A stretch of DNA of 49,767 nucleotides, from NCBI GenBank assembly GCA_035268685.1, contig DATFKK010000190.1:1-49767 (forward strand), in the 5' to 3' direction. This stretch comes from Candidatus Krumholzibacteriia bacterium (GTDB taxonomy: Bacteria > Krumholzibacteriota > Krumholzibacteriia > JAJRXK01). Within the stretch, counting starts at the first letter, position 1; the number at the start of each line of letters is the position of its first letter. The notes under the pieces are model-generated. The model was given only the letters and a program-made list of their open reading frames with translations, searched no databases and was not told where the DNA came from. Both the position numbers and the translations under genes were made by a program. Shown here one piece after another: positions 36,603 to 42,325 of the stretch.

Positions 36603-37400
36603 TCAGACGCCGAGGCGTGTGCGGATGGTGTGCAGCCGCTGTGGTCCGGCCGCGACCAGCCCGGGGAAGAGCACGCTCTCACGATTGAAGCGTGGCGGCT
36701 GACCGTTCTTCAGCACGACGTCGCCGCCGGCCGCTCGCACCAGGGCCACGCCCGCGGCCACGTCCCACTCACTCTTCGGCACGAGCGTCCACGTGGCGTC
36801 GGTCTCGCCGGCTGCGACCATGGCGAACTTGAAGGCTACCGAGCCGGTCGGGGTGACCGTGAACTCGGCGTCGGTGAAGTCGTCCCACTCGCCGCGCTTC
36901 GTCTCGCTGCGGCTGGCCAGGACCTCGATCCCTTCCAGGCTGTCGCCATCGCGCACGTGGCACGGAGATCCCGCGCTCCAGCAGCCCTGACCCACGGCCC
37001 CGACCACGTGCAGTCCGCTCACGGGATTGAAGATCCCGCCGGCCACGGCTTCGCCGTCGATGGTCAGTCCGACGCTCACGCACCACTCGGGAATGCCCTG
37101 CACGAACTCCTTCGTGCCGTCGAGAGGGTCGACGATCCACACGCGGGAGTGGTCGAGGCGTGAGAGGTCGTCGGCCGTCTCCTCGCTGAGCCAGCCCTCG
37201 CCCTCGCGCAAGAGCTGTTCGCGCAGGACGGCGTCGACCGCCAGGTCGGCCTCCGTCACGGGGTCACCGCCCGCCTTGTGATCGACCCGTGCACCGTCGC
37301 CGGCGTAGCGGCTCAGGATGGGGCCGGCGGTGTTCAGGGCGCGGCGGATGCGGTCGAGGTCGTCGGGCAGGAGTCCGGAGACGGGATCGCTGGCGCTCAA
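36603..37400 (-). CDS. CysQ-like inositol-monophosphatase-family phosphatase
   Basis: 265 residues from TTG 37400, preceded by GAGGAG. Mg-dependent phosphatase fold: KAGGDPVTEADLAVD, E in LSEETADD, WIVDPLDGTKEFVQG and SEWDVAAGVALVRAAGG. The KEF after DPLDGT and the C-terminal RESVLFPGLVA point to 3'(2'),5'-bisphosphate nucleotidase (CysQ), which removes PAP from sulfate assimilation. Inositol or histidinol phosphatase remains possible. The start overlaps the STAS gene stop (TTGA), so both are co-translated, an unusual pairing. Confidence 0.85.
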   Translation of the reverse strand: MSASDPVSGLLPDDLDRIRRALNTAGPILSRYAGDGARVDHKAGGDPVTEADLAVDAVLREQLLREGEGWLSEETADDLSRLDHSRVWIVDPLDGTKEFVQGIPEWCVSVGLTIDGEAVAGGIFNPVSGLHVVGAVGQGCWSAGSPCHVRDGDSLEGIEVLASRSETKRGEWDDFTDAEFTVTPTGSVAFKFAMVAAGETDATWTLVPKSEWDVAAGVALVRAAGGDVVLKNGQPPRFNRESVLFPGLVAAGPQRLHTIRTRLGV

Positions 37401-37774
37401 CCCGCCGACTCCTCGGCCCGGGTACCGTGGGCAGGGCCGTCGAAGGAGGCCACGGCGCGTCGGGGATCGGGATAGACGTCCCACATCGCGAGCAGACCGA
37501 CGACCTTCAGGATGTCCTTCACCCGGTCGTTCACGCCGGCCAGGACCGCGCGTCCGCCAGCGTCCTCGATCTTGCGGCGCGCGCCCACGAGCAGGCCGAT
37601 GCCGGTGCTGTTGATCCACGCCAACTCGGTCATGTCGAAGACGAAGTGGCGCCGGCCCTCCTCCAGCAGATTCTCGATCTGCGGGACGAAGAGCTGCTGG
37701 GAGAAGTCACCGGTCAGAGGCGTGAGCAGTTCGAGAATGGTCACGCTGTCGGTGGAGTGCTCGCTGATGCGCAT
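37397..37774 (-). CDS. STAS-domain protein (anti-sigma factor antagonist-like)
   Basis: 125 residues from ATG 37774, with AGGAG seven bases upstream; a start at 37789 would lack one. STAS fold: TILELLTPLTGDF, then HFVFDMTELAWINSTGIGLL, where S56 occupies the position phosphorylated in SpoIIAA/RsbV. Such proteins switch partner kinases or anti-sigma factors, but no such partner lies nearby. A dyad overlapping a TACAAT -10 hexamer (37806-37833) precedes the gene. Confidence 0.85.
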   Translation of the reverse strand: MRISEHSTDSVTILELLTPLTGDFSQQLFVPQIENLLEEGRRHFVFDMTELAWINSTGIGLLVGARRKIEDAGGRAVLAGVNDRVKDILKVVGLLAMWDVYPDPRRAVASFDGPAHGTRAEESAG

Positions 37775-37869: not shown

Positions 37870-40623
37870 TCAGTCCACGGTGCGCGCCAGTCCTCGTTCC
37901 CGGGGATCGGCCACCGCCTGCAACGCGCCGTCGGCCGCGCGTTCGAGTCCGACGACCCTGGCCGTTCCGTCCGAGGGCTCGATCCGATACCCGAGGCGCT
38001 GGACGGCGCGGACCCATCCGGGCGGGACACGGTCGGACTCGAAGGTGACGGCGGAACCGGCGAGTCCGATCCGTGGCGCGGCGACGGCCCGGTCGAGGGG
38101 CCAGGCGTCGGCGAGGCGCCGGTGCAGGACCTGGGCGGCGGCGGCCGGGGCGTCGGCAGCGCCCGTGGCGGCGAGGGCCAGCCACACGTGGCCGTCGCGG
38201 GTGGTGATCCCCGGTGTCGACGCCGTGCGGATGGCGGCGCCGGGCCGGACACGGTCCGGGCGGGTGGGTGCCGACGTGGGGTCGGCGGCCGTGTCGAAGC
38301 GCAGCATGCCGTCGTTCAGTCCGACTCCGGTCCCCGGCGCGATCCAGGCGGCGCCGAAGCGACCGTTCAGTTCGAGGGTCATCGCGACCGCGTGGCCGGC
38401 GGCGTCGACGACGGCCAGGTGCGTCGCGCCGCGCTCCCGGCGCGGATCGGGTGCTTCGGTCCGGGGTGCCGGTCCGATGGTGCCGGCCCGGGGCAGGCGC
38501 CGCGTGAGCCGCGCCAGGTCGGAGTGCGACAGCAGTTCGCGCAACGGGACGGGCATCACCGATGGATCGCCGACGTGGTCGCGCGCCGCCGGTGTGACGA
38601 GCCGCAGCGCCTCGATCCAGGCGCGGGCGCGGTCGGCTCCGGCCGGGTCCGCGTGGTCGGCGCGCTGGGCGTCGAGCAGGGTCCAGGTCCAGGGCAGGAC
38701 CAGGGCGGATTCGCCCGGGGGCGTCGCGGTGTGGAGCACGACGCGCCCGTCCCGGCTCAACGGCCAGCGAACGGCTTCGCGCTCCCGGACGCGATAGGCG
38801 CGCAGGTCCTCGATCGACCAGATTCCGCCGGCGCGTCGGACGTCGTCGACCACCGACCTTCCGATCCGGCCTCTCGACCAGACGCCGGCACCCTCGCGAC
38901 CCAGCGCCAGCAGGGTCTCGGCCAGATCCGGGCGGACGAGTCGTTCCCCGGCCTGGACCAGGCGGCCGTCCGGCAGATAGGTCCTGCGCGTCGATTCGAA
39001 GGCCTGGAGACGGGCACGCTCGCCGGCCAGCGCACGCGCGGTGCCGGTACGCACGGCCGCGCCCCGTGCGGCCGCCTCGAGCGCCGGGCGGAGAAGGCTG
39101 GGCCAGGCCAGCGCACCGTACCGGTCGTGGATCCGTTGCAGTCCGGGCACGGTTCCCGGGATCGCCGCCGCGAGAGGCCCGCGTGATGCCGCCGCGGTCA
39201 GACCCTCGGCCTCGAGTTCGTCGAAGAAGAATTCGTGCGCGGCGAGCGGTGCGCGCAGTCCGAAGTCGAACGATCGCGTCGACATGTCACGCGCGTCGTG
39301 GACGACCGCGGATCCGCCACCCCCGAGTCCCGCGACGTCGGGACGGACCACGCACAGGGCGAAGGCCATGGCGACCGCGGCGTCGGCCGCGGTGCCCCCC
39401 TCGCGAAGGATCTCGATCCCGATGCGGGTCACCGCCGAGTCGGCGCTGACCGCCGCTCCGCCACGACCGAGCACGCGGTGGGCGCCACCGCCCCGGGTCC
39501 ACGCCGAAGTCAGCACGGCGAAGGCGCGCTTGTCGCGCACCGAGGAGCTCCGCGCCCACCGCCGACGGAGGTCGGCATCGTCGCCGGTCGCGAGGTCGTA
39601 GGCGTGCCACAGGACGCCCCGGGTCCACCCCGTCGCCCCGGTCCGGTCGAGGGCGCGTAGCGTGCCGGCGATCGCGCGCGCCTGGTCGCGCTCGTCGGGC
39701 GGCGCGAAGCGGTCCGCCGGTCCCCGTACGACGCGCCAGGCCCGGTCGACCGACCGGTATCCGGCTGCGGTCAGCACCACGGGTCTGCGCCATCGTCGCG
39801 CGGTCTCGGCCAGCAGTTCGAGACGCGGCGCGAGGGCGCGGGCGATCTCGTCGACGGCCACGCTGTCCTCGTCGGTGGCCGACCACACCGACGGTCGGGG
39901 TCGGGGATCGGGATCGTCGTCGCCCGGACGTGAGACCGGCTCGTCGAGTTCGATCCCGATCAGGTCGAACTCGTCCCAGAAGTCGATCCGCTCGACCTCG
40001 TCGATCGAGCCCGCGCCGAGCGTGAGGAGACCGTCATAGCGAGCACGGACGGTCGCCACCAGACGGCGCCAGTCCGCCTCGCGGTGCGTGGTCGCGCTCA
40101 GGGCCGAGGGGAGCACGAGCAGATCGACCCCGACGTCGTCGGCCGTCGTCGCCCAACGGCTGCACCAGGCCCGGAGCCGGCCGAAGAACTTCGACCACGC
40201 CGCGTCGTCGTGCATGGCGACCCGGCCACGGGGGCCGCCGTCCAGGCGATCGACCCGAAGTCGGAGGACCAGCCGGAGCCCGAGTGCGTGGGCGCGGTCG
40301 ACGGACCAGCGCAGACGTTCCACCTCGACGGAGCGAGGGGTCGCCGGTGTGTCGAGGAAGGGGCTGTCGGCGCGTGCGACGAGCGCGACCACGTCCACGG
40401 CCACGGCCGTCGCTCCGGCGCCGGCGATGCGCTCGAAGCCCTCGCTCGCGGCCGGGCCTCCCGGACTGCGCTCGGGTGGATCGTTCCAGCCCCGTTCCAG
40501 GATCACGCCGTCCAGGCGGGCGACGGTGGGGGAAGCGCCCACCGACCGGGGATCGGGTTCCCCCAGCGCGGATCCGGTGATCAGCAGGAGACCCGTCGCG
40601 ACGAGGAGGATCAGGGTGGGCAC
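37870..40623 (-). CDS. Secreted fusion of GH113-like barrel and gamma-glutamyltransferase-like domain, both apparently inactive
   Basis: 917 residues from GTG 40623, preceded by GAGG; signal peptide about 1-21. Domain 1 (about 35-345) follows the GH113 mannanase pattern: RAHALGLRLVLR, READWRRLVATVRARYDG, IDFWDEFDLIGIELDE, GYRS. The two glutamates expected in GTE and FTE are A174 (LPSAL) and A286 (LTAAGYRS). Domain 2 (about 370-915) is gamma-glutamyltransferase-like: IGIEILREGGTAADAAVAMA, GLGGGGSAVVHDA, GPLAAAIPGTVPG. The self-processing site TTH is ATH (A733), so the nucleophile is missing. Other usual active-site residues also differ: E751, R775, A796/A797 and GAA at 821-823. Probably a binding or scaffold protein. 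The frame extends further upstream but overlaps mlaE/mlaF antisense and is not part of the gene. Confidence 0.75.
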   Translation of the reverse strand: MPTLILLVATGLLLITGSALGEPDPRSVGASPTVARLDGVILERGWNDPPERSPGGPAASEGFERIAGAGATAVAVDVVALVARADSPFLDTPATPRSVEVERLRWSVDRAHALGLRLVLRLRVDRLDGGPRGRVAMHDDAAWSKFFGRLRAWCSRWATTADDVGVDLLVLPSALSATTHREADWRRLVATVRARYDGLLTLGAGSIDEVERIDFWDEFDLIGIELDEPVSRPGDDDPDPRPRPSVWSATDEDSVAVDEIARALAPRLELLAETARRWRRPVVLTAAGYRSVDRAWRVVRGPADRFAPPDERDQARAIAGTLRALDRTGATGWTRGVLWHAYDLATGDDADLRRRWARSSSVRDKRAFAVLTSAWTRGGGAHRVLGRGGAAVSADSAVTRIGIEILREGGTAADAAVAMAFALCVVRPDVAGLGGGGSAVVHDARDMSTRSFDFGLRAPLAAHEFFFDELEAEGLTAAASRGPLAAAIPGTVPGLQRIHDRYGALAWPSLLRPALEAAARGAAVRTGTARALAGERARLQAFESTRRTYLPDGRLVQAGERLVRPDLAETLLALGREGAGVWSRGRIGRSVVDDVRRAGGIWSIEDLRAYRVREREAVRWPLSRDGRVVLHTATPPGESALVLPWTWTLLDAQRADHADPAGADRARAWIEALRLVTPAARDHVGDPSVMPVPLRELLSHSDLARLTRRLPRAGTIGPAPRTEAPDPRRERGATHLAVVDAAGHAVAMTLELNGRFGAAWIAPGTGVGLNDGMLRFDTAADPTSAPTRPDRVRPGAAIRTASTPGITTRDGHVWLALAATGAADAPAAAAQVLHRRLADAWPLDRAVAAPRIGLAGSAVTFESDRVPPGWVRAVQRLGYRIEPSDGTARVVGLERAADGALQAVADPRERGLARTVD

Positions 40624-40734
40624 GGGTCGACCTCGCCTCGGCGGGTGTCCGGGGAACGGAGTGTGATCGGGTGCGGACACGGCGGGTCGGCCGTCGAACG
40701 CGTACCGGTCGAGCGAGTTCCGGAGGTTGTCGCG

Positions 40735-40763
40735 TTGCCGTCGATCGATCGCGCGTCCATACT
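40735..40763 (+). promoter_or_regulatory. Candidate promoter of the Mla-type operon
   Basis: TTGCCG (40735-40740), 17 bp, CATACT (40758-40763). The ATG of the permease gene is at 40774, so the leader would be only about four bases; no Shine-Dalgarno is visible. Confidence 0.45.
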
Positions 40764-40773
40764 GCCGCCCATC

Positions 40774-41559
40774 ATGTGGATCCTCTTCGAGCGCCTCGGC
40801 GCGTCGTTCCTCGGAACCCTCACCGACCTCGGCCGGGTGGGCGTACTGCTGGCTCGCATCGTGCGCGCCTTCGTGGCGTTGCCGAAGAGTATCCACCTCG
40901 TCCTCCACCAGATGCGCATCATCGGGAACGGCTCGATTCCGCTGGTCCTGGTGACCTCGATCTTCACCGGTGCCGTCGCCACGATCCAGGCCCACTACCA
41001 GTTCCAGGACTACGTCCCGATCCGTTTCCTGGGAACGGTGGTGGCCAAGAGTGTCCTGCTGGAACTGGGGCCGGTGCTCACGGCACTCGTGGTCGGGGCG
41101 CGTGTGGGCGCGAGCATCGCCGCGGAGTTGGGGACGATGCGGGTCACCGAACAGATCGACGCCCTCGAGATGATGGCGATCGATCCGACCCGCTACCTGG
41201 CCCTGCCGCGTTTCGTCGCCGCCTGCATCATGCTCCCGGTGCTGACGATCTTCTCCAACGCGATCGCCATCGGCGGGGGCTTCTTCGTGGCGGTGTTCAC
41301 GCTCGATGTCACGTCGAAGACCTTCAGCGACGGTTTGCGCTTCCTGTTCGAGACGCAGGACCTGTGGGGCGGGCTGATCAAGGCGCTGTGCTTCGGAGCG
41401 ATCATCGCGCTGTCGGGCTGCGTGCACGGCTTCCACGCGCGGGGCGGCGCGGCCGGTGTGGGGGAGGCGGCCATGCGCGCCGTGGTGATGTCGTCGTTGC
41501 TGGTCCTGGTGACCGACTACGTGCTGGCCGCGGTGATCTTCCAGGTGCTCTTCGGATGA
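40774..41559 (+). CDS. mlaE: MlaE-type ABC lipid-transport permease
   Basis: 261 residues. MlaE/YrbE permease fold with about five membrane segments. IPLVLVTSIFTGAVATIQAHYQF, LGPVLTALVVGARVGASIAAELGTMRVTEQIDALEMM (the conserved coupling region) and FCFGAIIALSGCVHGFHARGGA-like C-terminal sequence are diagnostic. It moves phospholipids between inner and outer membranes with an MCE protein and ATPase, both encoded next. Possibly translated from a leaderless mRNA. Confidence 0.93.
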   Translation: MWILFERLGASFLGTLTDLGRVGVLLARIVRAFVALPKSIHLVLHQMRIIGNGSIPLVLVTSIFTGAVATIQAHYQFQDYVPIRFLGTVVAKSVLLELGPVLTALVVGARVGASIAAELGTMRVTEQIDALEMMAIDPTRYLALPRFVAACIMLPVLTIFSNAIAIGGGFFVAVFTLDVTSKTFSDGLRFLFETQDLWGGLIKALCFGAIIALSGCVHGFHARGGAAGVGEAAMRAVVMSSLLVLVTDYVLAAVIFQVLFG

Positions 41560-41569
41560 GCGGGGTGCG

Positions 41570-42325
41570 ATGAGCCAGGGAATCGTCATCCAGGGACTGC
41601 ACAAACGCTTCGACGACAACGTCGTGCTCGACGGCATCGATCTGCGCATCGAGCGTGGCGAGCAGCGGGTGATCCTGGGCCGCAGCGGGCAGGGCAAGAG
41701 CGTGCTGCTGAAGCTGTTGGTGGGTCTGCTCGAGGCCGACGCCGGATCGATCGTGGTCGACGGGCAGGAGGTCACGCGCATGCGGCGCGAGGAGCTGTAC
41801 CAGCTGCGGCGACGGTTCAGCATGGTGTTCCAGGGCGGCGCGCTGTTCGACTCGATGACCATTCTCGAGAACGTGGGGCTCGGACTGCAGGAGCACACGA
41901 AGCTGTCCGACGGCGAGATCCGCCGGCGCGCCGAGGAGGCGCTGGCCACGGTGGAGCTGGTCGACGTGGGTTCGAAGCTCCCGTCGGCGCTCTCGGGTGG
42001 GATGCGCAAGCGCGCCAGCCTGGCGCGGGCGATCGTGACCGAACCCGACTACATCCTCTACGACGAGCCGACCACCGGCCTCGACCCGATCACCAGCGAC
42101 GCGATCAACCGTATGATCCGGCGGCTCGACGACGAACTGGGCGTGACCTCGCTGGTGGTCACGCACGACATGACCAGCGCGTTCACCGTGGGGGAGCGAT
42201 TCACCCTTCTCAACGACGGGTGCGTGTGTTTCGAGGGAACCGCCGACGAGGCACGCTCGTCCACGGACGGTCCGATCCGTCAGTTCATCGACGGGAACAG
42301 CGAGGGCTCGCTCGAGTGCAACTGA
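41570..42325 (+). CDS. mlaF: MlaF-type ABC transporter ATPase
   Basis: 251 residues, 10 bases after mlaE. Walker A GRSGQGKS (37-44), Q-loop VFQGGALFDSMTILENV, signature LSGGMRKRASLARAI, Walker B ILYDEPTTGLDP and H-loop VVTHDM. LSGGM in place of LSGGQ and the GALFDS sequence are typical of MlaF and its relatives. It powers the neighbouring permease. The C-terminus ends EGSLECN. Confidence 0.94.
   Translation: MSQGIVIQGLHKRFDDNVVLDGIDLRIERGEQRVILGRSGQGKSVLLKLLVGLLEADAGSIVVDGQEVTRMRREELYQLRRRFSMVFQGGALFDSMTILENVGLGLQEHTKLSDGEIRRRAEEALATVELVDVGSKLPSALSGGMRKRASLARAIVTEPDYILYDEPTTGLDPITSDAINRMIRRLDDELGVTSLVVTHDMTSAFTVGERFTLLNDGCVCFEGTADEARSSTDGPIRQFIDGNSEGSLECN

Follow-up and report, generated by a model that had tools for sequence, protein, structure and literature searches.

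A GH113-gamma-glutamyltransferase fusion protein of a Krumholzibacteriota bacterium that appears to have lost its two active sites stepwise

Introduction

In the gamma-glutamyltransferase (GGT) of Escherichia coli, alanine in place of the threonine nucleophile (T391A) yields a chain that shows neither autoprocessing nor detectable activity (PMC8062742). Enzymes of this family (PF01019, TIGR00066, MEROPS T03) are the closest described relatives of one half of the protein reported here, which has in common with E. coli GGT, and with the mutants E. coli T391A (2E0W) and Bacillus licheniformis T399A (4Y23), the complete GGT fold and the order of the motifs, and with the two mutants the alanine at the nucleophile position. 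Unlike the E. coli and B. licheniformis enzymes, however, it naturally lacks the nucleophile and most of the donor-binding residues, lies behind a GH113 barrel and scores under the equivalog cut-off of the family. The other half resembles the GH113 endo-beta-1,4-mannanases (AaManA, 3CIV/4CD6; AxMan113A, 5YLH; PcMan113, 7DV7), whose catalytic pair in PcMan113 is E152/E232 (PMC10992819). It shares their barrel fold and Pfam family, but both catalytic glutamates are alanines and the barrel is fused to a GGT. As in pseudoenzymes generally, such as the non-catalytic glycoside hydrolases that serve as carbohydrate-binding proteins, the fold has been kept and catalysis apparently lost, whereas the presence of two dead enzyme domains in one chain, with an order of loss that can be read from relatives, sets this protein apart. 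A search of the literature on gamma-glutamyltransferase as a pseudoenzyme returned nothing relevant.

The protein is encoded in a contig of 49,767 nucleotides from Candidatus Krumholzibacteriia (DATFKK010000190.1), which is called the window below. Relatives were sought in 80 Krumholzibacteriota genomes, phylum-wide and class searches having given the same 80.

Results

The gene and its neighbours

The fusion gene and the genes around it are the following:

37870..40623, minus strand: GH113-GGT fusion coding sequence, 917 amino acids, GTG start and TGA stop, with same-locus orthologues at L033:8644-11418 and L034:8026-10758
40561..40623, minus strand: probable Sec signal peptide, residues 1-21, a hydrophobic stretch recognized by eye that forms a helix (2-18) in the structure model
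37397..37774, minus strand: STAS-domain gene (Pfam), downstream in the same direction, between the fusion and cysQ
36603..37397, minus strand: inositol-monophosphatase/CysQ-like gene (Pfam), downstream, also found downstream of the fusion of a congener
40774..41559, plus strand: mlaE permease gene, divergent, the syntenic anchor in three genomes, with an ATG start chosen by eye

The GTG start of the fusion is preceded, 7 nt upstream, by a GAGG (40631-40634). From this start the n-region carries no positive charge and is weak; an alternative in-frame GTG at 40680, which would add RRGR, lacks a Shine-Dalgarno-like site. A hydrophobic N-terminus, read from sequence as a putative export signal, is present in all three fusions known. 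No counterpart of the STAS gene was found in the 18 kb around either of the two other fusions.

A GH113 barrel with two alanines for the catalytic glutamates

The earlier note had described a signal-peptide protein with two degenerate enzyme domains, and both domains were indeed recovered behind the putative signal. The family search that it proposed for the first half matched the GH113 profile PF22612 (E 4.3e-21; score 76 bits, cut-off 27), and the N-terminal half of the structure model matches the GH113 mannanases 5yli and 3civ in Foldseek (TM by target 0.83-0.84; 5yli 0.84). Its assignment of A174 and A286 to the positions of the GH113 glutamates was also verified by alignment:

39604..40455, minus strand: residues 57-340, a GH113 (beta/alpha)8 barrel that has lost its catalytic residues (Pfam PF22612 and Foldseek)
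40102..40104, minus strand: A174 at the acid/base position, where the G003 fusion and every separate GH113 relative have Glu
39766..39768, minus strand: A286 at the nucleophile Glu position, which is Glu in separate GH113 relatives and lost in all three fusions

The family profile and the barrel fold are therefore found in this half and the acid/base and nucleophile glutamates are not. Two positions used for binding by mannanases have also changed by alignment, W104 to P and Y204 to D.

A complete GGT domain with a dismantled active site

The second half was matched by PF01019 (G_glu_transpept) at residues 404-911, covering 2-512 of the 512 profile positions (E 2.4e-102), in agreement with the GGT search that had been suggested. 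Against TIGR00066, the NCBIfam equivalog model for GGT with a cut-off of 357.85 bits, the window protein scores only 263.1 bits. Alignment with canonical GGTs places the following changes in the active site:

37873..39468, minus strand: residues 386-917, a gamma-glutamyltranspeptidase domain whose active site is lost (PF01019, TIGR00066, Foldseek)
39259..39261, minus strand: G455 at the position of E. coli R114
38425..38427, minus strand: A733 where E. coli has T391, the nucleophile for processing and catalysis; the two orthologous fusions and all 24 of the other canonical GGTs aligned have Thr here
38371..38373, minus strand: E751 at the position of T409
38299..38304, minus strand: L774-R775 at D432-D433
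38221..38226, minus strand: T800-A801 at S462-S463, T800 keeping the hydroxyl of S462
38158..38160, minus strand: A822 at G484, G483 being retained as G821

The replacement of the nucleophile by A733, as first read from the window alone, is thus confirmed. The further changes proposed at T409, D433, S462/S463 and G483/G484 hold in part, since T409, D433, S463 and G484 have indeed become E751, R775, A801 and A822, while S462 to T800 is conservative and G483 is conserved. Three losses had been overlooked, namely R114 (now G455), Q430 (now G772) and D432 (now L774). In the donor-binding set formed by R114, N411, Q430, D433, S462, S463 and G483/G484, only N411 (as N753) and G483 are retained, with S462 as Thr. 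Sequence along the whole domain and fold are those of a GGT enzyme; the threonine nucleophile, the donor-binding residues and a score above the equivalog cut-off are missing. The overall claim of a lost GGT active site is, as judged from the alignments, right.

The AlphaFold2 model (pLDDT 84.4, pTM 0.76), for which the protein was aligned with related ones, has as its best PDB matches in Foldseek the non-processing precursors 4y23 and 2e0w (TM by target 0.88-0.91; 2e0w 0.91), so that overlaying the model on known structures, another of the proposed checks, returned both the GGT and the GH113 mannanase folds. These matches, together with the behaviour of E. coli T391A (PMC8062742), support the prediction that without the threonine a single uncleaved chain would result. 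A733 is followed by T734, just as the substituted position is followed by T392 in the E. coli T391A sequence of 2e0w. T734 as a substitute nucleophile was ruled out, because E. coli T391A remains unprocessed with this neighbouring Thr (PMC8062742). The window chain should consequently not self-cleave, since its nucleophile is an alanine and the E. coli mutant is neither processed nor active.

Orthologous fusions and separate relatives

Among the 80 genomes, the fusion was found in only two others, one of the same genus (G001, JAJRXK010000092.1, Dive96_bin3.147) and one of the same family (G003). Both adjoin a divergent mlaE-mlaF-mlaD-radA cluster, with cysQ also downstream in G001, and are orthologues by position because the locus is the same. 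They share with the window protein the domain order and a GH113 part devoid of its nucleophile, but differ in that their GGT half retains its nucleophile and almost every motif residue (Thr, TTHL, MDDF, LSSM and GG), so that they are predicted to self-process. Both pass TIGR00066, with 431 and 446 bits as against 263 for the window protein. G003 (L034:8026-10758) has Thr at the position of the donor-carboxylate Arg114, and its specificity may already have shifted; in the GGT of B. licheniformis, R109S at this same position keeps 85% of the activity (PMC8062742).

The GH113 nucleophile Glu is gone in all three fusions, whereas the acid/base Glu is gone in the window and G001 proteins and kept in G003 (VGTEL). 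Separate GH113 proteins in genomes of the same family, including that of the window itself, keep both glutamates (VGTEL, TELGY), and another genome of the family (G002) has a separate canonical GGT. The window genome also contains a second, divergent GGT (L001, G000:C74) that scores 387 bits with TIGR00066 and keeps the Thr in the motif DTVYLATAD; similar second copies occur in G001 and G003.

A GH113 alignment search of genome contigs yielded no further fusions, its matches being the G001 record and, from other phyla, two GH113 proteins that stand alone. Neither did the long frames around the GGT matches of four genomes (G050, G029, G037, G044) contain another GGT fusion or any recognizable fused barrel, and viral contigs gave no match. 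Two frames of 653 and 504 amino acids (L040 in G019 and L042 in G027, the latter ending at a contig edge) carry an intact-Glu GH113 domain at the C-terminus behind an uncharacterized N-terminal part, and are possibly another type of GH113 fusion. A link to glutathione synthesis found no footing in four family members, with no GCS2-type gshA, only weak matches to the ATP-grasp of GSH synthase, and no pattern tracking the loss of the GGT.

Order of the losses and rate of change

The three fusions form one clade of the GGT tree (100/98), with the window and G001 proteins as sisters (98/93) and the separate G002 GGT next. The window branch measures 2.67 against 0.25 for its sister, and the corresponding lengths from a three-taxon LG fit are 1.41 and 0.29 in the GGT half and 0.91 and 1.01 in the GH113 half, although exact lengths are unsure owing to the long window branch and its odd composition. 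Tajima tests agree, with unique changes (window to sister) of 123:34 in the GGT half (chi2 50) and 33:35 in the GH113 half, while among five neighbouring genes mlaE, mlaF, mlaD and radA stay near 1:1 and dnaB shows 50:28. Taken together, the comparisons locate the apparent acceleration mostly in the GGT half.

Inactivation was accordingly stepwise, with the loss of the GH113 nucleophile common to all fusions, that of the acid/base residue common to the congeners, and that of the GGT private to the window lineage. This order follows because the orthologues keep the GGT nucleophile and the separate GH113 proteins keep both glutamates. A shared, long-selected state of paired degeneration is not supported, as the GGT Thr and the greater part of the pocket persist in the two orthologous fusions, and only the window copy, on an accelerated branch, has lost the Thr.

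Remaining constraint on the GGT half

The uninterrupted frame of 2.7 kb had been put forward as an argument for selection, but it is weak at about 70% GC, where long antisense frames occur: the frame of the fusion stays open for 462 more codons upstream over mlaE/mlaF (37870-42009, minus strand), and other antisense frames measure 880-1,090 amino acids, the spurious frames opposite real genes, this extended one included, covering lengths of 880-1,440 amino acids. The character of the substitutions is more informative. Over the GGT sites that G001 and G003 share and at which the window protein departs from them, BLOSUM62 scores average -0.52, as compared with -1.13 +/- 0.12 in neutral simulations and -0.03 for the changes of G001 itself. 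The proposed comparison of dN/dS across orthologues rejects omega = 1 for the GGT on the window branch (2dlnL 41.4), although synonymous sites are saturated among only three fusions and absolute omega values are not to be trusted. The GGT part has no stops, where neutral simulation expects 1.4-6.6 (the probability of none ranging from 0 to 0.23 with the GC equilibrium assumed), and no frameshift was seen (probability of none 0-0.12 at assumed frameshift rates of 1 in 40 or 1 in 100 substitutions). The C-terminal ADPRxxGLAxxVD is still present. On the other hand, 46 of 116 strongly conserved GGT positions have been lost, GC2 has risen to 0.595 from 0.53 in the orthologues, and the content of Ala (16.8%, with Lys at 0.2%) and Arg is up, all as expected if constraint were fading. 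The local GC content, 0.754 at 38001-40000, is the maximum of the window and is due to the GC1 (0.788) and GC2 (0.596) of the fusion rather than to its GC3. Constraint on the GGT half has clearly weakened, yet is probably not gone, since mild replacements, the lack of stops and frameshifts at this divergence and the rejection of omega = 1 favour a retained but relaxed constraint.

Discussion

The most probable reading, which we hold with somewhat more than even confidence, is that of an exported pseudoenzyme made non-catalytic in two steps and probably kept for its fold. Comparison among relatives shows both steps. In the first, a family of Krumholzibacteriota gained a fusion of a GH113-type barrel to the N-terminal side of a working GGT; the nucleophile Glu of the barrel is missing in all three known fusions, and the acid/base Glu also in those of the window species and G001. 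In the second, confined to the window lineage, the GGT lost its Thr nucleophile and most donor-binding residues (R114, T409, Q430, D432, D433, S463 and G484), and the branch concerned is some five to ten times as long as that of its sister. From the mutants of other GGTs, the product would be a single exported polypeptide of about 100 kDa, without autoprocessing and with neither activity. Less surely, weak purifying selection may hold the fold, and the protein could be a periplasmic or surface module for binding or scaffolding. Its working part would most plausibly be the barrel, which went on evolving at an unaltered rate as the GGT was lost. The more specific proposal that a non-processing GGT pseudoenzyme and a non-catalytic GH113 barrel have together taken on the role of an exported binding protein, the orthologues of sister species being arrested at an earlier stage with a dead barrel and a live GGT, is tentative and holds on balance the lesser part of our confidence; the binding of wall sugar-peptides is speculation.

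The main and serious rival, which we consider rather unlikely, is a slow decay in which the GGT became dispensable in this species and erosion is under way across the gene, with no new role acquired, the fairly recent date of the loss being the sole reason that it is still intact. The strong domain-specific acceleration, the GC-driven drift in composition and the disappearance of active-site residues along with many structural glycines all speak for it, as does the persistence of the second, Thr-bearing GGT in the genome. Yet the neutral change that it implies predicts roughly 1.4-6.6 stops and several frameshifts where there are none, the replacements are some 5 SD milder than neutral ones, the GH113 half is unaccelerated, and both the putative export signal and the C-terminus have been retained.

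A remodelled GGT pocket carrying out a different reaction is an improbable alternative, for which the new charged residues E751 and R775 at T409 and D433, the hydroxyl kept in T800, the preserved oxyanion glycine G821 and a well-modelled fold (pLDDT 84) could speak. No N-terminal nucleophile can be freed from this chain, however, as T392 does not rescue E. coli T391A (PMC8062742); moreover, the donor-carboxylate Arg is also gone, and E751/R775 are conserved in no second species. An artefact of sequencing, assembly or gene calling is very improbable: the assembly is of metagenome type with 202 contigs, but the changes are in-frame, affect single codons across the whole domain and come with a genome-typical GC3, in a neighbourhood that matches two relatives.

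For the pseudoenzyme kept for its fold, the chief interest would reside in the close orthologues that preserve an intermediate stage, and not in the joining of dead enzymes as such. A natural series can be read, from a separate live GGT to a fusion of a dead barrel with a live GGT, and from there to a chain in which both are dead. A practical consequence is that a Pfam score alone is unsafe ground for annotating a gamma-glutamyltransferase. The protein would offer a clear example of an enzyme turning stepwise into a non-enzyme, and allows a direct test of what use a bacterium may make of a GGT fold predicted to be unable to mature or to bind a gamma-glutamyl donor.
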